Shown in pieces: positions 6,088 to 53,132 of a DNA stretch of 64,000 nucleotides. The notes beneath the pieces are model-generated. The model made no database searches. It was not told where the DNA came from and saw nothing but the letters and a program-made list of their open reading frames with translations. Origin of the DNA: Croceimicrobium hydrocarbonivorans (GTDB taxonomy: Bacteria > Bacteroidota > Bacteroidia > Flavobacteriales > Schleiferiaceae); contig NZ_CP060139.1 of assembly GCF_014524565.1 (NCBI RefSeq), positions 186,001 through 250,000 of the forward strand, in the 5' to 3' direction. The position numbers and the translations under genes were made by a program. The first letter of the stretch is position 1, and every line of letters starts with the position of its first letter.

Positions 6088-7344
6088 CTACTGTCCGCTG
6101 CGAATCGCTTCTACCGGATCTAGTCGGGAAGCACTTAGGGCTGGAAGAAATCCGGATACCAAGCCAATGACAATCGAAATACTTAGGCCTTGGATGACAT
6201 TCTTAAGGCTCACGTAGATTTCAAAATCCATTTCACCCATTATATAGGGTAAAGCTAATTGCGCACCGTAAACCATTGCAATTCCTAGGCTTCCGCCGAT
6301 GAGGCATAAAAGCACCGACTCCAACAAGAATTGGCTCAGAATAAAATGTCTTTTGGCACCCAAACTCATTTGGATTCCGATCTGGTTGGTTCTTTCCCGA
6401 ACGCTAACGAACATGATATTCGCGATTCCAAAACCGCCAACCAGAATACTAAAACCACCAATTACCAGGCCGGATAATCCTATCGCAGCAAAAAAAGAAT
6501 CCAGTCCATTAGAAATCACCGAAATTTCATTTAGAGAAAAATTATCATCTGCCTTTGGCTTTAAACGTCGAATGGCCCGCATGGCTCCGGTAATTTCATC
6601 TTTCATCGCACTCATCTCCACCCCTTCCTTGGCTTGAGCCATGATGGTCCCCCCATTTTGATTCTTTAGACTCATCAGGTTTCCCACATATTTTATAGGA
6701 ACCAGAATAGCTCCATCCATATTTTGCCCAACCAAACTTTGACCCTGTTTTTCTAAAACACCGATCACCCTCAGTTTACGACCCAGCACACTGAAATCTC
6801 TACCAATAGGATCAGCGCCACCGTAAAGCCCTTCTGCCACATCATGTCCTAAGATAGCAATGGGATTTCCTTTTCGAGATTCCAGGTCGGAGAAGTAACG
6901 ACCCTCGGATAATTCAAAATTCCAAATGCGATTGTAATTATGTGAGGCACACATCACGTTTACCCTTTCCACCGAATTCAATCCGTATTTAAGGGTCTGA
7001 TTGACCCCGAAAACATAAGCGATGTACTCAACCGTGCTAAGGCGCTCCTCCAATTTTTCCATTTCGTAAAAATCGGGTTCCGGGCGCTGGAAATATTTCC
7101 ACCATTTGTATTCGCCAGATCCTCCACCCCAAGGCCACTTTTGCACATAAACCACATTACTCCCTAAGCTCTCCACACTTTCGCGGATATTTCGCTCTAA
7201 AGAATCAACAATGGTAAAAACAGCAACAATGGTTAGGATACCAATGGTTACTCCAATCAAGGAGAGAAAAGTGCGCAAACGGTTTACTCGCAAGGCATGC
7301 AAAGCAAAGCGTAAACTCTCTTGAAAAAGGCGAAGGAAGACCAT
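6088..7344 (-). CDS. MacB/FtsX-type ABC transporter permease
   Basis: 418 residues from ATG 7344 (a TTG at 7359 would add five residues). One N-terminal membrane segment (about 17-40, LRTFLSLIGVTIGILTIVAV), a large MacB-type periplasmic core domain, and three C-terminal membrane segments with the FtsX motif VRERTNQIGIQMSLGAKR. This layout is that of MacB-like permeases that act with an ATPase on lipoproteins, peptides or toxins. No ATPase is adjacent, so the partner must be encoded elsewhere. Convergent with msrC with only five bases between stops. The end (ASRLDPVEAIRSGQ) is the typical family C-terminus. Substrate unknown. Confidence 0.88.
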   Translation of the reverse strand: MVFLRLFQESLRFALHALRVNRLRTFLSLIGVTIGILTIVAVFTIVDSLERNIRESVESLGSNVVYVQKWPWGGGSGEYKWWKYFQRPEPDFYEMEKLEERLSTVEYIAYVFGVNQTLKYGLNSVERVNVMCASHNYNRIWNFELSEGRYFSDLESRKGNPIAILGHDVAEGLYGGADPIGRDFSVLGRKLRVIGVLEKQGQSLVGQNMDGAILVPIKYVGNLMSLKNQNGGTIMAQAKEGVEMSAMKDEITGAMRAIRRLKPKADDNFSLNEISVISNGLDSFFAAIGLSGLVIGGFSILVGGFGIANIMFVSVRERTNQIGIQMSLGAKRHFILSQFLLESVLLCLIGGSLGIAMVYGAQLALPYIMGEMDFEIYVSLKNVIQGLSISIVIGLVSGFLPALSASRLDPVEAIRSGQ

Positions 7345-7411
7345 GATCTTGAATTGCAATTCAAAGGTAAATGAATTTTGTCCAAGGCCTTTCCATGCTT
7401 TTAAAAAGCAC

Positions 7412-7419
7412 TAATTTTG
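7412..7419 (+). promoter_or_regulatory. Bacteroidota -7 box for purH
   Basis: TAATTTTG fits TAnnTTTG exactly. No good TTG is found about 19-20 bases upstream, so the -33 box is weak. The ATG of purH lies 21 bases beyond the box. Confidence 0.5.
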
Positions 7420-7440
7420 CCCTTTAAAAAATTTTTCAGC

Positions 7441-8949
7441 ATGCCTTCAGTTTCCGGTGCACCTACCGCCTTGATCTCCGTATTTTATAAAGATGGCTTA
7501 GATAGCCTCGCCCAAGCCTTAGTTGATAAGGGTTATACCCTCTTATCTACTGGAGGAACTCGCAAATTCCTGGAAGATCTGGGACATAAAGTAGAAGCCG
7601 TAGAGGACTTAACCAGTTACCCTAGTATTTTAGGAGGAAGGGTAAAAACCTTACATCCCAAAGTATTTGGGGGCATTTTAGGTCGTCGCAATTTAGATAG
7701 CGATATCGCTGAAATGAATGAATTCGAGATTCCCTCCATCGATGTAGTGGTGGTGGATCTCTATCCTTTCGAAGAAACCCTAGCTTCAGGAGCTTCGCAT
7801 CAAGATATTATCGAGAAAATTGACATTGGTGGAATTTCCTTAATTCGCGCCGCTGCCAAGAATTATAATGACACTTGGATTATTCCCTCGCGTGAATATT
7901 ATGCTCAAGCGCTTGAAGTATTAACTTCTGATAGTCTTAATGAGGAAGTTCGCAAACAATTTGCAGCTGCGGCTTTCCGCATTTCTTCAGCCTATGACAC
8001 CCATATTCAAGCCTATTTAAGCGGTAATTATCAAAACCTTATTTTAGGTCAGGAACATCCTTTGCGTTATGGTGAAAACCCACATCAAAAAGGAAGCTTC
8101 TACGGTAATATGGAAGAGGTTTTCGAGCAACTACATGGAAAAGCTCTTTCCTATAATAACTTGCTGGATGCAGATGCAGCGGTAAATCTGATTCGCGAAT
8201 TTGATGAAACTACCGTAGCTGTATTAAAGCACAATAATGCCTGTGGTATCGCATCACGCGAAAGCGTTTTAGACAGCTGGACTGATGCCCTTGCTGGTGA
8301 TCCGGTATCTGCCTTTGGTGGCGTTTTGATTTCTAACCGTGAAATTGACAAAGCCACCGCGGAGGATATGCATAAAATCTTCTTCGAGATTGTTATTGCT
8401 CCTTCTTACAGTGCCGAAGCTTTAGAAATCTTGCAGCAAAAGAAAAACCGCATCATTTTAATTCTGAAGGATTTTGATGCGCCCAAAATGCAATACAGAA
8501 GCCTCTTAAATGGCATTCTGGCTCAAGAAAAAGATCATCATACCGACAGCCAGGAAGACTTAAAAGTGGTAACCAAAGTAAGTCCATCAGCAGAGGAGAT
8601 TGAAGATCTGCTTTTTGCCTCAAAAATTTGCAAGCATACCAAGTCAAATACCATTATCTTAGCCAAGAACAAACAATTGATCGCGGGGGGTACCGGCCAA
8701 ACTTCGAGAGTTGATGCTTTAAAACAAGCCATCACTAAGGCCAAGGCTTTTCACTTCGAATTAGAGGGAGCGGTTATGGCATCGGATGCCTTCTTCCCTT
8801 TCCCTGATTGTGTTGAGATTGCCAATGAGGAAGGAATCAAATCGGTAATTCAACCTGGCGGATCAATCAAAGATCAGCTTTCGATCGACTATTGCGATCA
8901 GGAGCAAATGAAAATGGTATTTACCGGCATACGCCACTTTAAACACTAA
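7441..8949 (+). CDS. purH: Bifunctional AICAR formyltransferase / IMP cyclohydrolase
   Basis: 502 residues from ATG 7441; the frame extends back to a TTG at 7417 but that lies on the -7 box. Catalyses the last two steps of IMP synthesis in the cytoplasm. An MGS-like IMP cyclohydrolase domain occupies about 1-190 (LLSTGGTRKFLEDLG, HPKVFGGILGRR) and the AICAR transformylase domain the rest, with the KHNNACGIA motif around Lys263-His264, PLRYGENPHQ, and a C-terminal SDAFFPFPDCVEIA and VIQPGGSIKD. Length is normal for the family (about 500-530). mreB starts five bases after the stop, so purine synthesis and cell-shape genes may share a transcript. Confidence 0.97.
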   Translation: MPSVSGAPTALISVFYKDGLDSLAQALVDKGYTLLSTGGTRKFLEDLGHKVEAVEDLTSYPSILGGRVKTLHPKVFGGILGRRNLDSDIAEMNEFEIPSIDVVVVDLYPFEETLASGASHQDIIEKIDIGGISLIRAAAKNYNDTWIIPSREYYAQALEVLTSDSLNEEVRKQFAAAAFRISSAYDTHIQAYLSGNYQNLILGQEHPLRYGENPHQKGSFYGNMEEVFEQLHGKALSYNNLLDADAAVNLIREFDETTVAVLKHNNACGIASRESVLDSWTDALAGDPVSAFGGVLISNREIDKATAEDMHKIFFEIVIAPSYSAEALEILQQKKNRIILILKDFDAPKMQYRSLLNGILAQEKDHHTDSQEDLKVVTKVSPSAEEIEDLLFASKICKHTKSNTIILAKNKQLIAGGTGQTSRVDALKQAITKAKAFHFELEGAVMASDAFFPFPDCVEIANEEGIKSVIQPGGSIKDQLSIDYCDQEQMKMVFTGIRHFKH

Positions 8950-42704: not shown

Positions 42705-43208
42705 TTAACGGTAATCTTTGAGTTTATCCATCATTTTGCGGCGCGCTAAGAAGATACGACTCTTAACTGTACCTAATGGAATATCGAGGATCTCTGAAAT
42801 CTCCTCATACTTATAACCATTGTAATACATCATGAAGGTTTCCAGATAAGTCTTGTCGATAGAATTTACCTGCTTCATAACATACTTATGATCTACAATA
42901 CTGTCTGTGCTTACTGATTTCTCAGTTTCGCGCATATTGATGAAATACTTGTTTTCGGATTCATCAATAAATGTGTTCTGATTTTTGCGCTTGCGGTAGG
43001 CATTAATAAAGGTATTCTTCATAATGGTATACAACCATCCTTTGATATTGGTACCTTCTTGAAACTTCTCGCGATTCTTAAGCGCTTTGAACAAGGTTTC
43101 TTGCATCAGATCATCACTGTCATTATTGCTCTTGGTCAGTTTTAAGGCCAGTTGACGTAAGAAATCTTGGTGACCAATGATCATAGAACTGAATTCTGCC
43201 TGAGACAT
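42705..43208 (-). CDS. ECF-type sigma factor heading the carotenoid/photolyase operon
   Basis: 167 residues. Region 2 (about 15-80: FLRQLALKLTKSNNDSDDLM, GWLYTIMKNTFINAYRKRK) and region 4 (about 110-165: YLETFMMYYNGYKYEEISEI, LDIPLGTVKSRIFLARRK). First gene of the putative light operon, directly downstream of the cobalamin-dependent MerR-type regulator. The pairing parallels LitR-LitS in Streptomyces, where a light-released ECF sigma drives crt genes. No anti-sigma factor is evident. The target promoter of this sigma is not identifiable here. Confidence 0.93.
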   Translation of the reverse strand: MSQAEFSSMIIGHQDFLRQLALKLTKSNNDSDDLMQETLFKALKNREKFQEGTNIKGWLYTIMKNTFINAYRKRKNQNTFIDESENKYFINMRETEKSVSTDSIVDHKYVMKQVNSIDKTYLETFMMYYNGYKYEEISEILDIPLGTVKSRIFLARRKMMDKLKDYR

Positions 43209-43243
43209 GCGTGCTGATTTTTTTTGTTCAACTTATAACACCC

Positions 43244-43274
43244 CAAACTTAAACAAATCACTTCGGTTTCACAA
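43244..43274 (-). promoter_or_regulatory. Promoter of the sigma-crt-pterin-phr operon
   Basis: On the minus strand TTG (43274-43272), 20-base spacer, TAAGTTTG (43251-43244): a full match to the Bacteroidota TTG / TAnnTTTG promoter. Start of transcription would be near 43240, leaving a leader of about 30 bases before the sigma ATG at 43208. One TTTGTTTAA copy overlaps the spacer and the TA of the -7 box. Confidence 0.75.
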
Positions 43275-43315
43275 GTATTTTGTTTAACCTTAACACTAAT
43301 TTGATTAAACAAAAT
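43249..43315. promoter_or_regulatory. Triple TTTGTTTAA-type repeat, candidate operator of the B12-MerR regulator
   Basis: Three copies in alternating orientation: TTAAACAAA at 43249-43257, ATTTTGTTTAA at 43277-43287 and TTAAACAAAAT at 43305-43315. The last two are perfect 11-bp inverted arms around 17 bases. The first overlaps the -7 region of the operon promoter and the second lies just upstream of the -33 box, an arrangement suited to repression that is relieved by light. Confidence 0.65.
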
Positions 43316-43358
43316 CTTAAAGGACTGATTTAGTCGATGTTACAACTCTGAGATATAA

Positions 43359-43378
43359 TATACGTCGATTAACGTATA
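43359..43378. repeat. Inverted repeat at the end of the MerR-type gene
   Basis: TATACGT (43359-43365) and ACGTATA (43372-43378), perfect 7-bp arms with a 6-base spacer, straddling the stop codon of the regulator gene. It has no T-run, so it is a weak terminator or a protein site. Confidence 0.35.
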
Positions 43379-44262
43379 AAGGTTTTCTTTAAAGACTCAA
43401 TATCAGGGGATATCTCCACTTGGGCTGGGACATCTTGCGTTTCATAATTGCGAAACTGCATCCCGGTAAGGAAGAATCGGTAATTGTCTTTGTTGAACAT
43501 TTCCCCGATTTTCTGAAAATAAACGTCGATTTCCTCGAAATGAGGATTGGTGGTGAAAATGGAAATGAATTGATCCACCTTAGTCTTTTCAGCAACTTCT
43601 TTCAAATACTCTATAGGAACAGATTGCCCCAGATAAATAACCCGATTACCCAGTTTCTTTAGATAATAGTACAGGTAAAGCAAGCCCAGTTCATGCAATT
43701 CGTCTGCAGGTAAATACAGTACATAGCTTTTCCTTTTCTCGGATTTTTGAGGAATTATGGTTTGATCAATAATCGCAAAAAGCTTCTGCTTTACCAGATT
43801 GCTAATGAAATGCTCATTACTAACGCTTATTGCACCGGCTTGCCACAGAAGCCCTACTTCCTGAATAAACTTCCCCATGATGCGGGAAAGCGTTTCTTCG
43901 GTTCCAAACTGAATGAGACACTTATTAAATATGCTGTCGAAGAGATACTCATCATATTCCAGCATGGCAATCTTGAAAGCATTAATCTGACTTTCGTAGT
44001 TGCCCTGGTAACGACCTGCATCAATCACTGCCGCTCTTAGCTCTTCCGGACCTAGCTCTGCTACTTTGCTAATCCGCATACCACTCTTTACCAATACAGC
44101 AATATTGAGGATCTTCTTAAGATGCTCATCTATATAGTATCGGATATTGGTATCGGTGCGTTTGGGCTCAATTAGCTGATAACGCTGTTCCCAGGCACGC
44201 AGGGTATGCGCCTTAATTCCTGAAAGCTTTTCCAGATCTTTTATCGAATACTTAGATTCCAT
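43369..44262 (-). CDS. MerR-type regulator with B12-binding domain (LitR/CarH-like light sensor)
   Basis: 297 residues. MerR winged helix 1-70 (YSIKDLEKLSGIKAHTLRAW, EQRYQLIEPKRT), a helical cap (about 80-170) and a cobalamin Rossmann domain (about 178-297). The cap motif W-x9-EH is intact: Trp140, Glu150, His151 in LLWQAGAISVSNEHFISN. The cobalt lower-ligand motif ExHxxG is intact: E188-L-H190-E-L-G193. These are the residues of CarH/LitR photoreceptors, which bind DNA with adenosylcobalamin in the dark and release it in light. The residue after Trp140 is Gln, whereas in Thermus CarH I recall a His that becomes the second cobalt ligand after illumination. A TTTGTTTAG half-site (44300-44308) lies before its own start, suggesting autoregulation. 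Confidence 0.9.
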   Translation of the reverse strand: MESKYSIKDLEKLSGIKAHTLRAWEQRYQLIEPKRTDTNIRYYIDEHLKKILNIAVLVKSGMRISKVAELGPEELRAAVIDAGRYQGNYESQINAFKIAMLEYDEYLFDSIFNKCLIQFGTEETLSRIMGKFIQEVGLLWQAGAISVSNEHFISNLVKQKLFAIIDQTIIPQKSEKRKSYVLYLPADELHELGLLYLYYYLKKLGNRVIYLGQSVPIEYLKEVAEKTKVDQFISIFTTNPHFEEIDVYFQKIGEMFNKDNYRFFLTGMQFRNYETQDVPAQVEISPDIESLKKTFIR

Positions 44263-44308: not shown

Positions 44309-44365
44309 CTTTTAGATGAATAAAGTTGCACGAAAATAGACACTTTTTTTAAAGTCGGGATTGGC

Positions 44366-44373
44366 TACTTTTG
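44366..44373 (+). promoter_or_regulatory. -7 box for prfC
   Basis: TACTTTTG matches TAnnTTTG and ends only eight bases before the prfC ATG, so the mRNA would have a leader of only a few bases. No clear -33. Confidence 0.5.
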
Positions 44374-44381
44374 CGGCGACT

Positions 44382-45965
44382 ATGAGTAGCTTAAAACAAG
44401 AGATTGCCAAGCGCCGAACTTTCGGCATTATTTCCCACCCCGATGCGGGTAAAACGACCCTAACGGAAAAACTCCTGCTATTTGGTGGAGCCATTCAGGA
44501 AGCGGGTGCGGTAAAGAGTAATAAGATTAAGAAAACCGCCACCTCCGACTTTATGGAGATTGAGCGGCAGAGAGGAATTTCCGTTGCCACCTCGGTAATG
44601 GGATTCGATTATAAGTCGAAGAAAATCAATATCCTCGACACCCCTGGTCACCAGGATTTTGCCGAAGACACCTATCGCACCCTTACAGCGGTAGATAGTG
44701 TTATTGTGGTAATTGATGTGGCCAAAGGAGTAGAAACCCAAACCGAAAAACTGGTTGAAGTTTGTCGGATGCGGAATACACCTATCATCGTATTCATTAA
44801 TAAGCTGGATCGCGAGGGTAAAGATGCCTTTGATCTTTTGGATGAAATCGAATCCAAATTAGGTCTGAATATTTGTCCCTTGAGCTGGCCTATCGGCATG
44901 GGACAGCGCTTTAAAGGCGTATACAACCTCTGGGAAAAGCAATTGAAGCTCTATACGGAAGTCAATAAGCAAAAGATTGCCAACAGTATAGAGATTGAAA
45001 ATATTGAAGATCCTAAAATGGCGGAAATGGTTGGTGATGAAGCCGCCGCCACGCTAGTAGAAGAACTCGGCCTCTTACAAGGGGTTTATGATGATTTTGA
45101 TCGGGATACCTATTTGGCCGGAAATCTTTCCCCGGTATTCTTCGGTAGTGCCTTGAACAACTTTGGCGTTCAGGAATTGCTGGATTGCTTTATTGAAATC
45201 GCCCCTCCACCCCAGCCCAAAGATGCCAATGGGGTTATGGTAAAACCCGATGAAGACTTCTTCAGTGGTTTTGTATTTAAGATTCACGCCAATATGGACC
45301 CCAAGCACCGGGACCGTTTGGCCTTTATGAAGATTGTTTCCGGGACCTTTGAGCGCAATAAGAACTACAAGCATACTCGCATAGGCAAGAGCATGAAGTT
45401 TAGCAACCCTACCGCTTTTATGGCCTCAAAAAAATCGGTGGTAGATCAAGCTTTCCCCGGTGATATTATCGGCTTACACGATACGGGCAACTTCCGCATT
45501 GGTGATAGTGTGAGTGAGGGTCCTGATTTAGAGTTTAAAGGAATCCCCAGCTTCTCTCCGGAGCATTTCCGCTTTATCAATAATGCTGATCCTATGAAGG
45601 CTAAGCAATTAAATAAGGGAATTGATCAATTAATGGATGAAGGGGTTGCACAGCTCTTTACCTTGGAAAGTAATAACCGTAAGATCATTGGTACGGTGGG
45701 CGCCCTGCAGTACGAAGTAATCCAATACCGTTTAGAGCACGAATACGGCGCTAAATGTAGTTATGAGAACTACCCTGCATATAAAGCTTGTTGGATTGAA
45801 AGTTCTGATGAAGCCCAGCTGGAAGAATTCAGCAAATTAAAATACCGCTATTTAGCTCGCGATAAATTCGATCGTTTGGTGTTCTTAGCCGATTCCTCTT
45901 TCAGCCTAAGCATGGCAAGAGAGAAATTCGATAAGATTCAGTTTCACTTTAAATCAGAGTTCTGA
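44382..45965 (+). CDS. prfC: Peptide chain release factor 3
   Basis: 527 residues from ATG 44382; the frame reaches back to TTG 44361 but this overlaps the -7 box. Translational GTPase that recycles RF1/RF2. G1 ISHPDAGKTTLTEKLL, the switch region ERQRGISVATSV, G3 DTPGHQDF, G4 NKLDREGKD. C-terminal ALQYEVIQYRLEHEYGA is specific for RF3. Overlaps the 3' end of the convergent response-regulator gene by 22 bases. Confidence 0.96.
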   Translation: MSSLKQEIAKRRTFGIISHPDAGKTTLTEKLLLFGGAIQEAGAVKSNKIKKTATSDFMEIERQRGISVATSVMGFDYKSKKINILDTPGHQDFAEDTYRTLTAVDSVIVVIDVAKGVETQTEKLVEVCRMRNTPIIVFINKLDREGKDAFDLLDEIESKLGLNICPLSWPIGMGQRFKGVYNLWEKQLKLYTEVNKQKIANSIEIENIEDPKMAEMVGDEAAATLVEELGLLQGVYDDFDRDTYLAGNLSPVFFGSALNNFGVQELLDCFIEIAPPPQPKDANGVMVKPDEDFFSGFVFKIHANMDPKHRDRLAFMKIVSGTFERNKNYKHTRIGKSMKFSNPTAFMASKKSVVDQAFPGDIIGLHDTGNFRIGDSVSEGPDLEFKGIPSFSPEHFRFINNADPMKAKQLNKGIDQLMDEGVAQLFTLESNNRKIIGTVGALQYEVIQYRLEHEYGAKCSYENYPAYKACWIESSDEAQLEEFSKLKYRYLARDKFDRLVFLADSSFSLSMAREKFDKIQFHFKSEF

Positions 45966-46360
45966 TCGATCCCTTCGCGGAGTAAGGAAGGAATTAAGGG
46001 CTTGCGAAGTAATCGGATAATATGACGGTTTTCGCGGGCCCTTTTTAAATCGCGGTCATCCTCTGTAGAACTTACCATAAAGAGATAGGGACGCACTTTG
46101 GAGCGTTGAACCCACATCTCATAGTGCTTTAAGAATTGAAAGCCGTCCATTTCCGGCATCATCAAATCCAGCAAGATTAAATCGGGCATCGGCTTTTTGC
46201 CTTCCAGCGCATCATTTAAAAACTCCAGTGCTTCTTTTCCACTGTCGATTTCAACAATTTCGCGAGCAATTTTATGGTGTTGTATGAGTCTGCGGTGAAC
46301 AAAACGATCCACCACATTATCGTCAATCAGTAAGCAATATTCCACCTGGAACTCACTCAT
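45944..46360 (-). CDS. Single-domain response regulator
   Basis: 138 residues. CheY-like receiver: acidic pair at 13-14 (LLIDDNVVDRF), phosphoacceptor Asp65 in LILLDLMMPEMDG, conserved Thr/Ser in MVSSTEDD, and Lys in LLRKPL. No output domain. It is the last gene of the five-gene ThiF-GNAT-kinase operon and overlaps the upstream kinase by eight bases and the prfC end by 22. Probably a phosphorelay shuttle or protein-protein output. Confidence 0.93.
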   Translation of the reverse strand: MSEFQVEYCLLIDDNVVDRFVHRRLIQHHKIAREIVEIDSGKEALEFLNDALEGKKPMPDLILLDLMMPEMDGFQFLKHYEMWVQRSKVRPYLFMVSSTEDDRDLKRARENRHIIRLLRKPLIPSLLREGIDQNSDLK

Positions 46361-47468
46361 CGGAGTCTTTGCTTACATTAGGAATGCAGATGTGAAACTC
46401 CGCACCCTCTCCGGGACTGGATGTCACGTCTATTGAACCGCCCATTTTGGCCAAGGCCTCTTTTACGATATACAGTCCCAGTCCGGAACCCGCCATTTGA
46501 TCTTTTCCTCGGAAGAACATTTTAAAGATTTGCTCAACATGTTCATGAAGAATTCCAACACCATGGTCCTTCACCCGAATATGAATTTCCTCGGCATCAA
46601 TGGCAAATTTGAGATCCACCCGAGCACGATCTTGATCCGGTTTCTTAAACTTAATTGCATTGGCAATCAAGTGACTTAATACGATCCGAATTCGGAAATA
46701 ATCGCCGAAGAAACGTGCATTTTGATTTACGCTCTTCTGAATATTTACATTCTCGCGACTCTCTCCTGAATGCAGATGATTGAGAACATCATCTACAAGG
46801 TTTTCAATATTTACCTCTACAAACTCCTCGGCAGCCTTAGAGTTTTTATAATAATCGATAATATTATTTACCAGTAAATCAAGCTTGTGAACACTTTGAT
46901 CTACTTTATTGAATAAGCTTACTGCTTGTTCTTCTTTAACATCAAGATGCGCCACTTTAACCAAACCTAAAACACTGGCGATGGGTGCTCTTAAATCGTG
47001 GGAAACACTATAAACAAATCGATTGAGCTCATTATTGGTTTTCTCCAAATCCTCAATCTTAGTGCGCAATTGTTTACGCGTATGGTAGAGGTCATAGGCA
47101 TTTTCAATAGCCACCTTAATCTCTGCCTCACTCCAGGGCTTAGTAATGTAGCGATATACATGGCCTTTGTTAATGGCATCGATGATATCATTAACATCGG
47201 TAAAGCCGGTAATCAATATCCTTACGGGATCCGGAAATACTTGGCGTACGGCATTAAAGAACTCTACCCCACTGGTCACGGGCATTCTTTGATCCGAGAA
47301 AATAACCTGAGGTTTATGCGTTTTCAGGATACTAAAAGCGTCTTCCGTATTATTAGCGGTATACACTTCATAATCCCTGCGAAAAGCAGCTTTAAAAGAT
47401 CGAAGGTTATTATCCTCGTCATCCAGGTACAGGACCCGAATCAATTTAGTCGAATTTCTGGGTGTCAT
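46353..47468 (-). CDS. Receiver-histidine kinase hybrid (soluble)
   Basis: 371 residues. Receiver domain at 1-125 (VLYLDDEDNNL, Asp59 in FSDQRMPVTSG, Lys in YRYITKPW), a short coiled coil (about 127-150), then HisKA with His157 in VSHDLRAPIAS and a HATPase domain with DHGVGI and MAGSGLGLYIVKEAL. No membrane segment. The receiver closely resembles the one encoded divergently at 52671. Receives signal from, or acts with, the 7TM kinase upstream (four-base overlap). Confidence 0.93.
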   Translation of the reverse strand: MTPRNSTKLIRVLYLDDEDNNLRSFKAAFRRDYEVYTANNTEDAFSILKTHKPQVIFSDQRMPVTSGVEFFNAVRQVFPDPVRILITGFTDVNDIIDAINKGHVYRYITKPWSEAEIKVAIENAYDLYHTRKQLRTKIEDLEKTNNELNRFVYSVSHDLRAPIASVLGLVKVAHLDVKEEQAVSLFNKVDQSVHKLDLLVNNIIDYYKNSKAAEEFVEVNIENLVDDVLNHLHSGESRENVNIQKSVNQNARFFGDYFRIRIVLSHLIANAIKFKKPDQDRARVDLKFAIDAEEIHIRVKDHGVGILHEHVEQIFKMFFRGKDQMAGSGLGLYIVKEALAKMGGSIDVTSSPGEGAEFHICIPNVSKDSDE

Positions 47469-49558
47469 GCAAATTCGTTTGGCTGACGAATGGGTAAAAA
47501 TAAGATAAATTCAGTGCCTTTGCCAAGTTCGCTATTTACTTCTATTCGCCCACCATGTTTATCAATAATTTTAAAAACAATACTCATACCTAGCCCTGTT
47601 CCTTCTCCCACCTCTTTTGTGGTAAAGAAAGGCTCGTATAACTTTTTCTTGGTTTCCTCACTCATACCGATACCATTATCGATTAAGTGCACGGCTACCA
47701 TTTCGGAATCTACCATGCGGGTTTTCAAGGTTAAGGTAGGTTCTTCCCCCTCCTCATAACGCTTGGCATTCACCGCATATATTCCATTGTTCAGGATATT
47801 CATGAAGGCCTGATTCAGTTTACCCGGGAAACAATCAATGTCCATCAGGTTATCATCATAGTCCCTCACTACCTCAATGAGGTCTTTTGTTTTATTTCGA
47901 AGCAGGATCATGGTACTATCCAAACCTTCATTAAGATTTGCTTTTTTCACCACATCCTCATCCAATCTAGAGAAATTCCGCAGCCCCAGCACGATTTCAG
48001 AAGTTCGCACGGCTCCGTCGGAAATACCGCTTACCAGCGATTCGATTTCCTCTTTTAAGAAATCATAATCAAACTCCTGCAAGCTTGCTTTGGCTTGTTT
48101 CAACTGCTCTGGATTGCAATCCTCCGGCAATTGAGAGAAACGGTCAACAATGGTATATACCTCATCTAAATCCAATTTCAAAGGCTTGATATTGGAAGTA
48201 ATAAAGTTGATCGGATTATTAATCTCATGTGCAATACCCGCGGTTAACTGTCCCAGGGATGCCATTTTCTCTGCATCGACCAGCTGAGTTTGGGTTTCCT
48301 TCAAATTATCCAAGGTAACCTGAAGTTCCTCATTGGCCTCTTGCAATTCCATGGTGCGAGCCTCTACCCTTTTCTCCAGCTCTATGTTTTGCTCTTTAAT
48401 AATTCTCTCGTTTTCACGAGCCATTTCCAGAGCACGGGCTTGGGAATATTCTTTTTCCCTTCGCAATTGGTTTATTCTATCAGCCAGGGCGACCGAGAGG
48501 AGTACGACTTCAACACTGGATCCGAAGAGCATAGAACGACGGAATACCGGGTTATAAGGAATAATATCAAAGTCTTTTAAAGCGAATATCACCACCGAAG
48601 TGAGGAATACCGACCAAGCCAAAAGGAAGAAGTTAGCTGGCTTAAAGCCTGATTGCGCCAATTTCACCGCCGCTACAATGGCAATAATGGATCCCACCAG
48701 AGACACCATATTCACCATTTTATAGGAGAAGGACTCATAGCCCATCAGCAATAAAACAATGGCTAGCACATCTAAAGGAACTACCGAAAAGAGCAGCTTC
48801 CTAAAGAAGGGAGCTTTGGTCTTTAGGCGTAAAAAGTTATTGATGAAGAATATCGAGGCAATAGCCACCAGGGCCCCAGACAGAACAGCGAAAATTCGGT
48901 TGAAAGCCGGAAAAGCTTGGAATAGGAAACGATCGGTATATCCAAATAAAGCTGCTTGCGCCAATCCTAAGGTGAGGAGATACAGGATGTAAAATAGGTA
49001 ACTGCGATCGCGGGTAAGGAAAAAGATCACCAAGTTGTACAAGAACATCACGGCGATTAATCCCACATAGGTCCCAAAGAAAAAGTCGTTATTACTTAAA
49101 GTAGCCGATAAGGACTCTCTTTCCACTAATTGAAAGGGTAAAACTACCGGCTTATGGCTGTAAATTTCGAAATAATACTCTTGCACTCCATTTTTAACCG
49201 GGAATACAAAATCCGAAGATTCATACGCTCGTGTATTAAAGTCAAAAGCCTGACCGGTTTCCAAAATTAAATGCAAGCCGTCGGCTTCACGACGATAGAA
49301 ACGAATGGTGTCTAATAAGGCGTAGGACAGGAAAATGCGGCGATCCTCATGGGCATATTCGGCATCAACCACCAACTTTACATAGGCAACATTGCCATTA
49401 TCAAAGTTTGCTACTCCCTTTTTCTCGGTTACATAGTCTAAACCAATTACCTCCGACTCGGTATGCGTTTTTCCATCACTGAAGGTCGCAATACTCAATT
49501 GAGCATGGGCCGTCCAACTCAAGAGGATTAAAAGGTTTATCAGAAAAATCCTTTTCAA
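47465..49558 (-). CDS. 7TM-DISM sensor histidine kinase
   Basis: 697 residues. Signal peptide 1-19; periplasmic 7TMR-DISMED2-like beta domain (about 20-155), seven membrane helices (about 160-358), coiled coil (about 365-430), then HisKA with His444 in AGIAHEINNPINFI and HATPase with DNGIGMSEETKKKL and GEGTGLGMSIVFKI. Starts with TTG at 49558, four bases after the GNAT stop; an in-frame TAA at 49571-49573 leaves no ATG. DISM extracellular domains often bind carbohydrate-like or other small ligands. Ligand unknown. Confidence 0.92.
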   Translation of the reverse strand: MKRIFLINLLILLSWTAHAQLSIATFSDGKTHTESEVIGLDYVTEKKGVANFDNGNVAYVKLVVDAEYAHEDRRIFLSYALLDTIRFYRREADGLHLILETGQAFDFNTRAYESSDFVFPVKNGVQEYYFEIYSHKPVVLPFQLVERESLSATLSNNDFFFGTYVGLIAVMFLYNLVIFFLTRDRSYLFYILYLLTLGLAQAALFGYTDRFLFQAFPAFNRIFAVLSGALVAIASIFFINNFLRLKTKAPFFRKLLFSVVPLDVLAIVLLLMGYESFSYKMVNMVSLVGSIIAIVAAVKLAQSGFKPANFFLLAWSVFLTSVVIFALKDFDIIPYNPVFRRSMLFGSSVEVVLLSVALADRINQLRREKEYSQARALEMARENERIIKEQNIELEKRVEARTMELQEANEELQVTLDNLKETQTQLVDAEKMASLGQLTAGIAHEINNPINFITSNIKPLKLDLDEVYTIVDRFSQLPEDCNPEQLKQAKASLQEFDYDFLKEEIESLVSGISDGAVRTSEIVLGLRNFSRLDEDVVKKANLNEGLDSTMILLRNKTKDLIEVVRDYDDNLMDIDCFPGKLNQAFMNILNNGIYAVNAKRYEEGEEPTLTLKTRMVDSEMVAVHLIDNGIGMSEETKKKLYEPFFTTKEVGEGTGLGMSIVFKIIDKHGGRIEVNSELGKGTEFILFLPIRQPNEFA

Positions 49559-49562
49559 GTTC

Positions 49563-50252
49563 CTAGAGCTTTAAATCCAATTGATACTGTACATCCACCA
49601 TGCGGCGGCGCGATTGTTCTTCAAATCTTTGATTAGGTTCCTGACGTAAGGATCCCACCCGATCGAGCTCAAGTTCTGAGGCTCCATCCAATATTGAGGT
49701 ATCGGGTAATTTCATGGCCGTTGCCAGTAGATCCAGTTTAGGATAATAAAAAGTACCATCATTACCCACCTCATGCATCACCTTATAACCGAAACTCTCT
49801 GCGGTAGCTATGGTATAGGGTGCACACAGGGCAAATAAGGATTTTACATTAATTTGGGTTGTAATGGCTACCGCCGCTCGAGTAAGGAATAAGCTTCCAA
49901 ATCCCAATCCGGCTACCTTTCGAGAATTCCAAAGACCACAAATTTCGCCGGTTCCTTCGGTAGCGGCATCGGCAATATGATCATGGATAGTAGGGTCCAT
50001 ATATCCCGTGGCAGAGGCAATGGGTAATTTGCTATTACCGTAGGAGGTATCCACACGAGCGCCACCCAATACTTCTAAGCTATCGGGGTCTTCGACCACC
50101 AGCACATAGGTACCTGGATTTTCCACCCATGTAGCTTTATTGGAAGTCACTTTATTAACCCCAATACTGCTTAGGATGTCACCATGGCCTTTTAAAAATT
50201 TCTGACAGCTTTCGGGATCGTCCACTGCCTTAAACGCTCTAAGTCTAAGCAC
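49563..50252 (-). CDS. GNAT-like acyltransferase-fold protein
   Basis: 229 residues, GTG start, overlapping the ThiF gene by eight bases. An acyl-CoA N-acyltransferase-like order of elements is seen: VEDPDSLEVLGGARVDTSYG, then EICGLWNSRKVAGLGFGSLF, and FALCAPYTIATAESFGYKVM. The last two resemble the cofactor-binding strand-helix and the final beta-alpha of GNAT proteins, and the layout recalls N-acyl-amino-acid or autoinducer synthases. No closer family recognised. A possible substrate-modifying partner for the ThiF-nitroreductase protein. Confidence 0.55.
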   Translation of the reverse strand: MLRLRAFKAVDDPESCQKFLKGHGDILSSIGVNKVTSNKATWVENPGTYVLVVEDPDSLEVLGGARVDTSYGNSKLPIASATGYMDPTIHDHIADAATEGTGEICGLWNSRKVAGLGFGSLFLTRAAVAITTQINVKSLFALCAPYTIATAESFGYKVMHEVGNDGTFYYPKLDLLATAMKLPDTSILDGASELELDRVGSLRQEPNQRFEEQSRRRMVDVQYQLDLKL

Positions 50253-52584
50253 GGTTTTCCATTAAATTTTTAAACACTTCAGTGATAGGTTTGCGTAAAG
50301 ATTTAATACTTGGTTCCCTGGCATAAAAAAGTCTGCAAAGGAATAAATCATTTACGTCTTCCCCTAGACCTAAGAGGTCTAAATAAGCTTTCCTCAGCTC
50401 TTTTAATTTTTCTCTAAGATAAGGACTGGTACTGACATCCTCACCGGATAAGCGAGCAAACATAAAGGTAGCTGGCGAAACCGGCTGATAGGATATTCCC
50501 TGATCATTTAAATACAACCATATTCTTTCTACCCATTTCCCACCTTCTAATACGGTAGCTGCATCATGCTTTGAACTATGTAAAATGGCTAAGGCGGAGC
50601 AGTTCTTCATGGCATCCGTGCTCATCTTTATTAAGGCAGTACCCTTATCCCATTCTCTTAAATTGGCCATGGCCTCTGCATCTTGAATAAGCTTAAAGCC
50701 TACCTTATCGGCTTCGGAAAGCTCGAGGGTGCGTAAATCCACACCATTTCTGCTTCCTTCTGCTTGCTCTTTAGTCCAGCGTGCCTCATGAATAAAATCA
50801 CGATGACCCCAGGGATCTAATATCCTCTGACGTTCAACCTTACCAATAATCTCGGCCAGCTCCTCAATTTTATTGCGATCCTCTAGCCAATTCATGGCAA
50901 AGGAGCTATCGGCTAAGGCTAAGCCAATTTCAGATTTCACCGCCTCGGGGATTGCCTTGTATTCCGGAGCCTTTAAGCGATTGGTCATTCGAATATCGAG
51001 GCGATCACCAAAATCTTGGAAAGGAGCTTTGGGACTTAATATCTTAGAAAAGGAGTAAACAGCAACTAAGTCTGCACCAAAGGTGTCCATTCTATACAGC
51101 TCTTGGGCCTGATAGCCCATTGCCAAAGCTCTTTGCTCCAAGTTTTCCATAGCCGCACCCAAACCTATATAGCTACCTCTATGACGGTAATCCAAAAAGC
51201 TCACCGAATAGTGTTTATCATGACAAAGGGCTAGCATGGAGTCCTTCCAAATCCATTTCCAAGGCTGAACGTTTCCACCGGTAGGCGCTAAGCAAGCCTT
51301 TTCAACTAGATCATCAATTTCCTCAGAATTGAGCTCTATTGCATCGGCAGAAGCCTTCACCCCACTTTGCGCCAATAATTGAGAACAATAGTCGAAACTT
51401 AATTCTTCAGGACTACTAGTCACATTTGTAGTAGCCTGTTCATCATTTTTCTTTGCCTCGAGGTACATCTCATCGGCATCTAAATAGAAGCGCCCCGATT
51501 GTACCGGCTTTCCCAAAAGGATATTGCGACTTACAATGGTGCTCAGTGCACCACCAAGACTTACGGAAGAGGCCAATTGAGGCCAGGTGGTTAAAGACTC
51601 CTCAACTTCGAGTAAAGAAGCTTTTAAACGCGAAGAAATATTCTGCGCTCCAACCATATCCATCACCAGAGCCAAACGTTCTTTGGCAGTCCATTGATCG
51701 ATCGATTTAGCGCCTTCTTCCGAAACCATCCCATGCATTAAAGCACGACTAGGCTCCAGATCAAAACGTTCAATATCCATCATACCTCGATCGCTGGTAT
51801 CCATAATAACTGGAATACCTTTCGCCCGTGCCTTTACTCTAGCCTTTATCTTAATGGCTAAGGAATCACATTCCTCAATCAAAAGGTCTAATTGATTGTC
51901 GCCCTCACCTAAAAATTCATCGAGATTGTCTTCAGTAATGCCTTCGTCAAAGACTTCCACTTTTAAAAAGGGATCAATCTCGGCTATTTCCCGAGCCACA
52001 ATTGTGGTTTTAGGCAAGCCCAATTCTGCCACTCCGGCACGAATACGATTGAGATTACTTAAGTCAAGATGATCGAAGTCGGCAATCCGCAAAGTTCCGT
52101 AGACCCTTTCCATACTTAAGGTGAGCGCCACTGACTGACCTACCGAGAGACCAATCACGCCCACTTTCTTATTCATTAATGAATCTTGCTCTTCGGGATG
52201 AATCTTATATTGATTCCTCGAAGTCCTAAGACGAATAAAATCCTCTTTAGGCACTAAATGAACCAGCGAATTGCTCCAGGGATAAAAAACCCATACCCCA
52301 TAATAGTCAGGGTCTTGCTGGGCGCACCATTCAGACCAGTAATTTTTAAGCGAATTAGCGTCTGGCTTAAGCTTCGGATTGTCAATTTTATACAACTCCA
52401 AAATCTGATTTTCAATGGAGTTATAAACATTTAATTGTGAATTATTTTTATCTAGAAATACTTCTAATTTCGTTCTATCATCTTCCTTAGACATGTCGTA
52501 AATAAATGGAATAAATGTATTTTTATTCGCACTCAAACTTGCTGGAGATGAGTTTTTTAGCTTGGAGTTTATTGCATTTTCCAT
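50245..52584 (-). CDS. ThiF (E1-like) - nitroreductase fusion protein (Rv1355c/MoeY-like)
   Basis: 779 residues from ATG 52584 (MENAINSKLK); a TTG at 52614 would add ten. An N-terminal helical section (about 1-130) is followed by an E1/ThiF adenylation fold (about 140-350): GVIGLSVGQSVALTL (142-156), the adenylate region DFDHLDLSNLNRIRAG, and DTSDRGMMD; then a nitroreductase fold (about 420-770) with CLAPTGGNVQPWKWIW and a C-terminal FYAREPSIKSLRKP. This architecture is known as the Rv1355c family, of unknown function. It probably adenylates a carboxyl group and carries out a flavin redox step. First gene of an operon with a GNAT protein and a histidine kinase relay. Confidence 0.9.
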   Translation of the reverse strand: MENAINSKLKNSSPASLSANKNTFIPFIYDMSKEDDRTKLEVFLDKNNSQLNVYNSIENQILELYKIDNPKLKPDANSLKNYWSEWCAQQDPDYYGVWVFYPWSNSLVHLVPKEDFIRLRTSRNQYKIHPEEQDSLMNKKVGVIGLSVGQSVALTLSMERVYGTLRIADFDHLDLSNLNRIRAGVAELGLPKTTIVAREIAEIDPFLKVEVFDEGITEDNLDEFLGEGDNQLDLLIEECDSLAIKIKARVKARAKGIPVIMDTSDRGMMDIERFDLEPSRALMHGMVSEEGAKSIDQWTAKERLALVMDMVGAQNISSRLKASLLEVEESLTTWPQLASSVSLGGALSTIVSRNILLGKPVQSGRFYLDADEMYLEAKKNDEQATTNVTSSPEELSFDYCSQLLAQSGVKASADAIELNSEEIDDLVEKACLAPTGGNVQPWKWIWKDSMLALCHDKHYSVSFLDYRHRGSYIGLGAAMENLEQRALAMGYQAQELYRMDTFGADLVAVYSFSKILSPKAPFQDFGDRLDIRMTNRLKAPEYKAIPEAVKSEIGLALADSSFAMNWLEDRNKIEELAEIIGKVERQRILDPWGHRDFIHEARWTKEQAEGSRNGVDLRTLELSEADKVGFKLIQDAEAMANLREWDKGTALIKMSTDAMKNCSALAILHSSKHDAATVLEGGKWVERIWLYLNDQGISYQPVSPATFMFARLSGEDVSTSPYLREKLKELRKAYLDLLGLGEDVNDLFLCRLFYAREPSIKSLRKPITEVFKNLMENRA

Positions 52585-52634
52585 GTGTAGGACACCCTGA
52601 AATCTATCAGCCAAATTACGGCATAGTATTGAAA

Positions 52635-52654
52635 TTTACCTTACTTTTACCTTA
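52635..52654. repeat. Two 9-bp direct repeats between divergent genes
   Basis: TTTACCTTA at 52635-52643 and 52646-52654, one helical turn (11 bp) apart, 17 bases before the response-regulator ATG and 51 before the ThiF gene start. A likely site for a regulator of the divergent pair. Confidence 0.4.
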
Positions 52655-52670
52655 GATTTTTGATTTAGAG

Positions 52671-53132
52671 ATGAACGAAAATGTGAAAATCTTGTATGTC
52701 GACGATGAAGCCCACAACTTGCAGGCTTTTAAAGCCAATTTTCGTCGAGATTTCACCTTATTCACCGCAGAATCAGGGGCTGAGGGTCTAGAGATTTTTA
52801 AAAGGGAAGAGCTCAATATTATTCTCACTGACCAAAGAATGCCAAATATGACTGGGATTGAATTTTTGGTAGAGGTGCAGAAGATCAATCCTGAGCCCAT
52901 GCGAATTTTGATCACCGGCTATTCTGATATCAATGCGGTAATTGATGCTATTAACCGCGGACAAGTATATCGCTACCTTAATAAGCCCTGGCATTACGAC
53001 GATTTGAAGGCCACTATTTTGTCGGCTCATGAAGTATTTCGTCTGAGAAGAGAAAACCGAGACCTTATTGATCAGCTCGAAAGAGCCAATGAGCAATTGG
53101 AATTCTTACTGCGCCAGAAACTACTTTCCTAA
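52671..53132 (+). CDS. Response regulator with C-terminal coiled coil
   Basis: 153 residues. Receiver domain 1-120 with VDDEAHNLQAF, Asp54 in ILTDQRMPNMTG, and YRYLNKPW; the last about 30 residues (RRENRDLIDQLERANEQLEF) form a coiled coil. No DNA-binding domain. It is divergent from the ThiF operon and its receiver is very like that of the hybrid kinase there, so the two probably arose by duplication and belong to the same system. Confidence 0.93.
   Translation: MNENVKILYVDDEAHNLQAFKANFRRDFTLFTAESGAEGLEIFKREELNIILTDQRMPNMTGIEFLVEVQKINPEPMRILITGYSDINAVIDAINRGQVYRYLNKPWHYDDLKATILSAHEVFRLRRENRDLIDQLERANEQLEFLLRQKLLS

Follow-up and report, generated by a model that had tools for sequence, protein, structure and literature searches.

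A candidate signal-and-receptor cassette joining a TrzS-family enzyme, a FeeM-like GNAT and a 7TM-DISM kinase relay in Croceimicrobium hydrocarbonivorans and other Bacteroidota

In regard to the biosynthesis of acyl-oxazolones, a pair of neighbouring genes, trzA and trzS (Rv1356c-Rv1355c), has been described from mycobacteria and Rhodococcus. TrzA N-acylates tryptophan, and the fusion protein TrzS performs an ATP-dependent cyclisation followed by an O2/FMN-dependent desaturation of the acyl-tryptophan, which yields tryptazolone; OxzAB of Pseudoalteromonas rubra and TyzACB of M. tuberculosis are presented as related pathways (PMC12856293). The same source calls the physiological role of acyl-oxazolones unresolved and reports cyclic di-GMP genes adjoining trzAS; a GGDEF gene also lies near a Rhodococcus plasmid member of the family found in our searches. 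Here we analyse a locus of Croceimicrobium hydrocarbonivorans, located in a stretch of 64,000 nucleotides (contig NZ_CP060139.1, positions 186,001 to 250,000; hereafter the window), where genes for a TrzS-like fusion of a ThiF domain with a flavin-dependent oxidase (FDO) and for a GNAT-fold protein are joined to the genes of a membrane sensor kinase, a receiver-histidine kinase (RR-HK) and receivers (Table 1).

Several described systems link signal-making enzymes to receptors or combine enzymes of similar kinds. The phcBSRQ operon of Ralstonia encodes a signal-making methyltransferase, a sensor kinase, PhcR, which is a receiver joined to a histidine kinase, and PhcQ, which combines a PhcR-like receiver with a C-terminal part described as uncharacterised (PMC8578825, PMC6989110). 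PhcQ binds and stabilises the regulator PhcA (PMC13320629). In Bacillus comQXPA, close relatives differ from one another in the genes for signal production and for the receptor together (PMC4408185). Stieleriacine clusters combine genes for N-acyl amino acid synthases, ThiF proteins, nitroreductases and methyltransferases, and the term "histidine kinase" is absent from the main text of that report (PMC12479983).

On balance, we favour the view that the locus is a quorum-sensing-like cassette for making and sensing an N-acyl amino acid with a capped carboxyl group, in this case probably an acyl-oxazolone. It is likely that the enzymes produce an N-acyl amino acid derivative, and sensing of the product by the adjacent kinase is the explanation that best fits the linkage and co-segregation, from which we infer it. 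Judging by family membership, fold and the published biochemistry of homologues, the GNAT would join an acyl group to an amino acid, probably an aromatic one, the ThiF domain would adenylate the carboxylate and close the oxazolone (azlactone) ring, and the fused FDO would desaturate it. The neutral product, resembling an acyl-homoserine lactone (AHL), could then reach the 7TM-DISM sensor of the cognate kinase, as linkage and co-segregation suggest. The kinase, the RR-HK and the separate receivers may form a relay, which their domain content and conserved phospho-acceptors point to, with an output that probably runs through the divergent receiver by way of its conserved tail. Relatives have ThiF alone or a methyltransferase (MT) in place of the ThiF-FDO enzyme, and with the common MT type the sensor half of the kinase is replaced as well, as in quorum-sensing pherotypes. 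A first-pass annotation of the window had offered the production and sensing of a small modified metabolite as one reading of the locus; the comparative data favour it. It also offered the control of a modification by phosphorylation, and nothing pointing to this was found, no direct test of it having been made.

The 789-residue protein matches the NCBIfam model NF005901, "Rv1355c family protein", with 717.9 bits against a cut-off of 476 (E 1.3e-215, residues 30-781). Because the curated cut-off is exceeded across both domains, the protein belongs to the Rv1355c/TrzS family of acyl-oxazolone synthases. The fusion itself is recovered by a Pfam ThiF match (E 2e-17) together with a sub-cut-off nitroreductase match in one protein; what had been read as a nitroreductase half is better described as an Acg/FDO-type flavin oxidase, which is optional in relatives. 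The description of the enzyme pair as uncharacterised has to be abandoned, since the chemistry is published for TrzA/TrzS, OxzAB and TyzACB and the window protein scores above the Rv1355c-family cut-off. Identity to plasmid-borne actinobacterial members is about 34-35%, and the ATP-site motifs (ADFD, SNLNR and ECD), as well as the FDO Arg and Gln positions, are common to the aligned window, Rhodococcus and Mycolicibacterium members, with the Gln position being His in some family members, the Rhodococcus one included. By mapping from numbering offsets, the likely equivalents of Asp217, Arg540 and Gln651 of M. smegmatis TrzS, residues whose importance has been demonstrated there, are Asp250, Arg597 and Gln710. 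On a Streptomyces plasmid (L172:6128-9042), a gene for a beta-ketoacyl-ACP synthase 3 comes after that of a ThiF relative, beside which no GNAT is annotated.

The GNAT call had been made from the letters alone; the window protein has no Pfam family match, the autoinducer-synthase family included, and no PDB match by sequence search, and the call is backed by the predicted fold. The AlphaFold2 model (mean predicted local distance difference test score 88.6, from an alignment of 49 sequences) has as its best PDB match FeeM (2g0b; E 1e-8, VIA Z 17.6, 173 residues, 2.5 A). AHL synthases stand high among the matches (LasI Z 15.6, BjaI Z 15.3, TofI Z 14.9, and also RpaI), and general GNATs are interleaved with them at Z 16.0 and below, two falling between FeeM and LasI by Z; in the Foldseek list, GCN5-type structures come after FeeM. 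The comparison with autoinducer and N-acyl-amino-acid synthases that had been suggested thus came out with FeeM first. Identity to the AHL synthases and FeeM is about 8-16%, and the Pfam FeeM family (PF21926) weakly matches one of 21 relatives (E 0.28) and not the window protein. An assignment to LuxI or FeeM by sequence was rejected, the likeness being one of fold only. The nearest structures of TyzA are likewise FeeM and BjaI (PMC10404671). From its model, the GNAT is a probable N-acyl-amino-acid synthase.

Some GNAT relatives occur in other settings. One (L087:7393-8562) forms a single protein with a restriction endonuclease domain of Mrr type (Pfam Mrr_cat, E 5.2e-27), and on a Streptomyces plasmid (L171) a ThiF-GNAT pair is followed, after about 0.9 kb, by a gene annotated as a restriction endonuclease. 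Two genomes carry a second GNAT relative elsewhere: in G173 (L079/L085) one copy is with kinase genes and one without, and in G145 (L072/L087) one copy belongs to a full cassette that a contig end truncates, and the other is the Mrr fusion.

The window's order has the GNAT in 22 of 196 genomes, one of them (G009) with a marginal match inside another gene, and the class has it in 55 of 295 genomes and 37 of 156 genera. Genome-contig loci were taken as the best 80 of 385 confirmed relatives, which lean towards the window's GNAT; some are one genome met through two collections (e.g. L068/L088, L069/L090, L070/L091, L074/L160), and such identical rows leave the label-change counts given below unaltered. 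Within 9 kb of the GNAT in these 80 loci, a DISM kinase is found in 75, an RR-HK in 73, a separate receiver in 73 and all three in 69, and a 138-aa single-domain receiver is near the GNAT in 34. The five loci with no called DISM kinase (L104, L108, L110, L149, L167) are near contig ends. In the order/phylum set, 31 of 32 loci have the GNAT and 27 of those the DISM kinase (it is lacking in L077, L079 and L087, and L057 is cut). In the class sample, a GNAT open reading frame (ORF) was called in 43 of 46 loci, and in 40 of these the DISM kinase follows it directly or with one gene between, the exceptions being L196, L209 and L217. Because loci with this set of genes are met again in many genera, its composition is not due to chance. 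The ThiF-GNAT-kinase linkage, for which conservation beyond close relatives had been the critical question, spans many Bacteroidota families.

The gene beside the GNAT is exchangeable. In the 80 best loci, this slot holds an MT in 31 (assigned by Pfam in 4 loci, as Methyltransf_25/11, and by BLAST in the others), ThiF alone in 24 and ThiF with FDO in 23, with 2 unassigned. Rarer occupants are a FAD_binding_4-type oxidase (3 loci), a Methyltransf_2 protein (one locus) and a protein of the isoprenylcysteine carboxyl methyltransferase (ICMT) family (another single locus), so that slot methyltransferases come from three Pfam families in all; in L206 the slot is empty. A separate FDO elsewhere in the genome was found in 0 of 12 ThiF-only genomes by a search which recovered the fusion in two fusion genomes. 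ThiF activates a carboxylate and ICMT enzymes methylate carboxylates, and therefore the simplest inference is that the slot enzymes share one task, to cap an N-acyl amino acid at its free carboxylate, which is no more than a guess in the case of the MT, Methyltransf_2 and FAD types.

The relation of the slot to the other genes was followed in loci L056-L167, 112 in number, of which 111 (all but L058) have a GNAT. A set of 92 comprises the loci whose slot was assigned and whose GNAT, kinase and RR-HK genes are complete, 19 being left out. A larger set of 131 adds two FAD-oxidase loci and 37 of the 46 class-sample loci, which had been found through the GNAT profile with the slot disregarded and whose slot labels were given by hand; the remaining nine (L177, L183, L193, L196, L203, L204, L209, L210, L217) were omitted for missing ORFs, contig ends or unclear slots. 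Quick trees were made with FastTree, and IQ-TREE (quick LG+G4) served for the MT/ThiF support, the approximately unbiased (AU) test and the 131-locus counts; its support and AU analyses carried long-branch warnings.

In the 92 loci, the slot type changes 6 times on the tree of the kinase's 7TM part, 10 times on that of its ectodomain, 15 on that of the linker, 19 on that of the kinase core and 17 on each of the GNAT and RR-HK trees, against about 44 with shuffled labels. After resampling to 110 columns, for which the linker is too short, the counts are 7.3 for the 7TM, 9.7 for the ectodomain and 17.7-18.5 for kinase, GNAT and RR-HK. This signal comes from loci with the order GNAT-X-DISM, X being the slot gene (7TM 3, ectodomain 4, kinase, GNAT and RR-HK 11-12 changes); the X-GNAT-DISM loci, which have no MT among them, give no co-segregation signal. 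In partial Mantel tests given kinase and RR-HK, with p values that ignore the kinship of loci, the correlation with slot type is 0.52 for the 7TM (p 0.001) and 0.005 for the GNAT (p 0.39). MT and ThiF are separated by a single change on the 7TM tree, with a support of 100 (SH-like approximate likelihood ratio test, SH-aLRT), and constraining MT kinases to group together on the kinase-core data is rejected (p-AU 3.5e-6). In the 131 loci, MT changes against the rest once on the 7TM tree, twice on the ectodomain tree and 12 times on each of the kinase and GNAT trees. Four MT loci among the additions, two pairs from two families (f80 and f89), all fall into the MT group of 7TMs, and their GNAT and kinase fall outside the groups of the other MT loci. 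Within the MT class, 7TM distance given kinase and GNAT tracks MT distance (0.805) and not GNAT distance (0.046), and the kinase tracks the GNAT (0.863). The presence of FDO in all ThiF-class loci gives a weak sign in the same direction, with 5 changes on the 7TM tree versus 8-9 on the others. Finally, among pairs with kinase identity of at least 75%, 7TM identity is below 50% in 138 of 139 pairs of different slot class, ThiF with and without FDO being counted as one class. For the MT/ThiF difference, the putative signal-making gene and the sensor domain thus co-segregate against the rest of the locus, and linkage could explain part of this.

Natural swaps between close relatives illustrate the pattern. 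The loci of Sphingobacterium paucimobilis (L109, MT) and S. tabacisoli (L120, ThiF) lie in flanking DNA of 96-100% identity on both sides (150-base windows) and diverge from the middle of the GNAT gene to beyond the separate receiver. Slot gene and sensor have no meaningful alignment there (46-62% in a forced DNA alignment), and protein identities are 89% for the GNAT, 25% for the ectodomain, 29% for the 7TM, 84% for the linker, 89% for the kinase core and 93% for the RR-HK. L120 and L121, both ThiF, are alike through the cassette, with 99% identity in the 7TM. Likewise, L176 (ThiF with FDO) and L184 (Methyltransf_2), which share a genus code, have kinases 88% and 7TMs 50% identical.

Such co-segregation could also be a by-product of physical linkage, with non-homologous slot genes and diverged sensor halves unable to recombine apart and so inherited as an unmatched block. 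This account, which we regard as unlikely, draws on the gene order: in the 30 MT loci analysed the slot gene sits between the GNAT and kinase genes (GNAT-MT-DISM), and therefore the two could be passed on as a unit that does not recombine, with no functional match of enzyme and sensor. In the other gene order, several same-class sensor replacements accompany a low identity of the adjacent GNAT, as in L060/L059 (GNAT 46%, ThiF 63%, 7TM 37%, kinase 82%) and L126/L094 (GNAT 62%, ThiF 76%, 7TM 40%, kinase 86%). A linkage block does not readily explain why the 7TMs of MT type form one group in families whose GNAT and kinase are dispersed, or why a second slot change, from ThiF-FDO to Methyltransf_2 in L176/L184, also comes with sensor divergence. 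The 7TMs of ThiF loci moreover group across gene orders, though weakly: in all 30 GNAT-ThiF-DISM loci they resemble the 7TMs of ThiF loci with the other gene order more than those of MT loci with the same order, which holds for 0 or 1 of the 30 with the other segments. This last effect is small (36.5% versus 33.5% mean identity, in 30 loci that are not independent), and it belongs, as does the gene order of the MT loci, to a number of observations that speak against a signal-and-receptor cassette. Among pairs of the same slot class with kinase identity of at least 75%, 7TM identity is below 50% in 49 of 246, and several such pairs that were checked have a diverged GNAT instead; across the 92 loci, sensor and GNAT correlate at 0.29 in a partial Mantel test given kinase and RR-HK. 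Within the ThiF class, the 7TM correlates weakly with ThiF (0.146) and with the GNAT (0.099), and in X-GNAT-DISM loci FDO presence has no association with the 7TM (5 changes, 5-6 on other trees). Nor is the sensor sorted by chemistry in a simple way: the closest 7TMs to that of L056, a FAD-oxidase locus, are MT-type sensors, and for the Methyltransf_2 and ICMT loci they are ThiF-type sensors. Furthermore, kinase genes are not nearby in some loci (L077, L079, L196), and no dedicated output regulator was identified.

Other readings accept the chemistry or part of it. The enzymes might make an acyl-oxazolone or acyl-amino-acid metabolite, such as an antimicrobial or a stress lipid, with the relay only controlling its production on an unrelated cue. 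Regulators often adjoin the genes they control. N-acyl tyrosine relatives have antimicrobial activity, and subinhibitory antibiotics induce oxazolones in some Proteobacteria (PMC12856293). We nevertheless find this reading improbable, as it fails to predict that the sensor half, unlike the kinase core and the GNAT, tracks the MT/ThiF difference, or that enzyme and sensor form a mosaic at one site in close relatives. Alternatively, the kinase could sense the product as feedback on membrane-lipid level inside one cell rather than in communication between cells. The finding that tryptazolones are mainly in cell pellets fits such feedback, with the acyl-tryptophan intermediates being mainly in the supernatant (PMC12856293). 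The exchange of enzyme plus sensor between close relatives resembles communication groups more than lipid homeostasis, and we hold the feedback explanation to be rather unlikely. That the ThiF domain is a true E1 for a ubiquitin-like or sulfur-carrier protein, with chemistry of the molybdopterin or thiamine type, is highly improbable: there is similarity to MoeB/ThiF models, but these matches are far below their cut-offs, for which reason the MoeB/ThiF-type E1 was rejected as a candidate, and the Rv1355c model is passed by over 240 bits. The cassette that makes and senses its own acyl amino acid derivative stays the reading we prefer.

The arrangement of the six genes agrees with the first-pass annotation: all six ORFs were confirmed at the coordinates it gave, and the five-gene operon with a divergent receiver is real, the junction spacings having been re-measured on the minus strand. 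The ThiF-FDO and GNAT genes overlap by 8 bases, a gap of 4 bases separates the GNAT from the kinase gene, the kinase and RR-HK genes overlap by 4 bases and the RR-HK and single-domain receiver genes by 8. The ThiF-FDO ORF as listed starts with TTG, an in-frame ATG ten codons in being the alternative start, and its first codon lies 56 bases from the divergent ORF. A promoter scan found two sigma-70-like sites in this gap against 1.4 expected, which is not informative.

Table 1. Genes of the cassette in the window (positions counted from the first base of the window).
Feature	Position	Strand	Details
trzS-like: E1/ThiF-type ATP-dependent cyclase fused to Acg-type FDO (family by sequence)	50245..52614	-	789 aa (start codon uncertain); NCBIfam NF005901
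trzA/FeeM-like GNAT, probable N-acyl-amino-acid synthase	49563..50252	-	229 aa; predicted fold
Membrane sensor kinase: DISMED2 ectodomain, 7TM-DISM, linker helix, HisKA + HATPase_c	47465..49558	-	697 aa; His444; Pfam
RR-HK, PhcR-like architecture	46353..47468	-	371 aa; Asp59, His157; Pfam
Single-domain receiver, variably present in relatives	45944..46360	-	138 aa; Pfam Response_reg E 4.5e-13
Separate (divergent) receiver, PhcQ-like architecture, conserved C-terminal tail	52671..53132	+	153 aa; Pfam Response_reg E 9.4e-20

The domain calls for the 7TM-DISM kinase, the receiver-kinase hybrid and the two single receivers are upheld by Pfam. In the kinase, 7TMR-DISM_7TM matches with E 5.9e-43, DISMED2 and HATPase_c are above gathering scores and HisKA is below its cut-off; the RR-HK matches Response_reg, HisKA and HATPase_c. 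By structure search, the kinase ectodomain resembles the RetS periplasmic domain (E 2.1e-4), and the 7TM part has weak generic 7TM matches only, from which nothing was concluded. Phospho-acceptors are conserved in all these proteins: His444 of the kinase (in IAHEINNP) is kept in at least 93% of 98 aligned kinases, Asp16, Asp17, Asp59, Thr87, Lys110 and His157 of the RR-HK in at least 90% of 96 sequences and Asp13, Asp14, Asp65 and Lys120 of the 138-aa receiver in at least 85% of 50, and the divergent receiver has its acceptor at Asp54. The very similar receiver domains noted in the RR-HK and the divergent receiver amount to 47% identity, as measured with the near-identical copy of the latter in L068. 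Outside its receiver domain, the divergent receiver carries a tail that ends QLEFLLRQKLLS in the window, with residues kept in at least 85% of 100 aligned sequences; this conserved tail is possibly a partner-binding surface.

The window's genome (G000) has four 7TMR-DISM matches above the Pfam cut-off, only one of them in this locus. In L073, a gene for a trypsin-like protease with a Por secretion tail (6347-7963) adjoins the divergent receiver, and ORFs of similar size stand beside it in L072, L076, L078 and L080 (526-556 aa across the set with L073); this gene may either act as an output of the system or merely happen to lie there. At the other end of the operon, a release-factor-3-like gene (prfC by reading; 44361-45965) converges on it with a 22-base overlap with the last gene, a neighbourhood kept in several relatives of the family. 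Further on, at 42705-44262, an ECF-like sigma factor is beside a MerR-type regulator, both by reading; we take the long C-terminal part of the latter to resemble B12-binding light regulators.

If the proposed cassette is real, acyl-oxazolones would be signals, and 7TM-DISM receptors would be paired with the synthases of lipid-like ligands, which would make this a new kind of bacterial chemical communication. To our knowledge, the ligands of most 7TM-DISM receptors are unknown; glucose-6-phosphate is reportedly a ligand of SagS. A conserved operon with its own sensor kinase would make the role of acyl-oxazolones directly testable in Sphingobacterium and Pedobacter species, and the natural swaps of enzyme plus sensor would offer ready-made pairs for mapping specificity. 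That there is, more broadly, a Bacteroidota quorum-sensing family in which a FeeM-like synthase makes an N-acyl amino acid and works with an exchangeable carboxylate-capping enzyme (an oxazolone-forming ThiF protein, desaturase included or not, or an MT from one of several families) that sets the "language", the matching 7TM-DISM sensor half being exchanged along with it, we regard as an even prospect.

In comparison with known systems, the locus shares with TrzAS an acyltransferase gene beside a ThiF-FDO fusion of one NCBIfam family, and differs in having a histidine-kinase relay, none being described in the accessible text of PMC12856293. The earlier statement that no system of this composition is described thus fails for the enzyme pair and stands for its coupling to a kinase, an RR-HK and receivers, for which no report was found among the open-access records listed; nor did these show any Bacteroidota family of quorum-sensing systems with a small-molecule signal and such a composition. 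Set beside the cassette by description of domain content, phcBSRQ appears to be the closest architecture, with a linked kinase, RR-HK and separate receiver, signal making being deduced here; the MT-type relatives (31 of the 80 best loci) even have a methyltransferase. The window itself has a GNAT and a ThiF-FDO protein and no methyltransferase, whereas the available phc descriptions name no GNAT and give 3-hydroxy fatty acid methyl esters as the signals. No phc-like operon is annotated in three neighbourhoods among the plasmid matches to the RR-HK. Staphylococcal agr has pherotypes like those of comQXPA, and the variation among receptors of such systems is, as far as is known, confined to the sensor part. 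Peptides serve as signals there; the present cassette would use a small acyl amino acid, and the tailoring enzyme that is swapped belongs to another enzyme class. The GNAT fold is shared with AHL synthases and FeeM, which the window protein differs from in matching no Pfam family; AHL synthases close the lactone themselves, whereas a separate ThiF protein would do the ring closure here. What emerges from these comparisons is a known biosynthetic pair set in a widely conserved and apparently undescribed signal-and-receptor cassette, with a pherotype-like exchange of tailoring enzyme and sensor.

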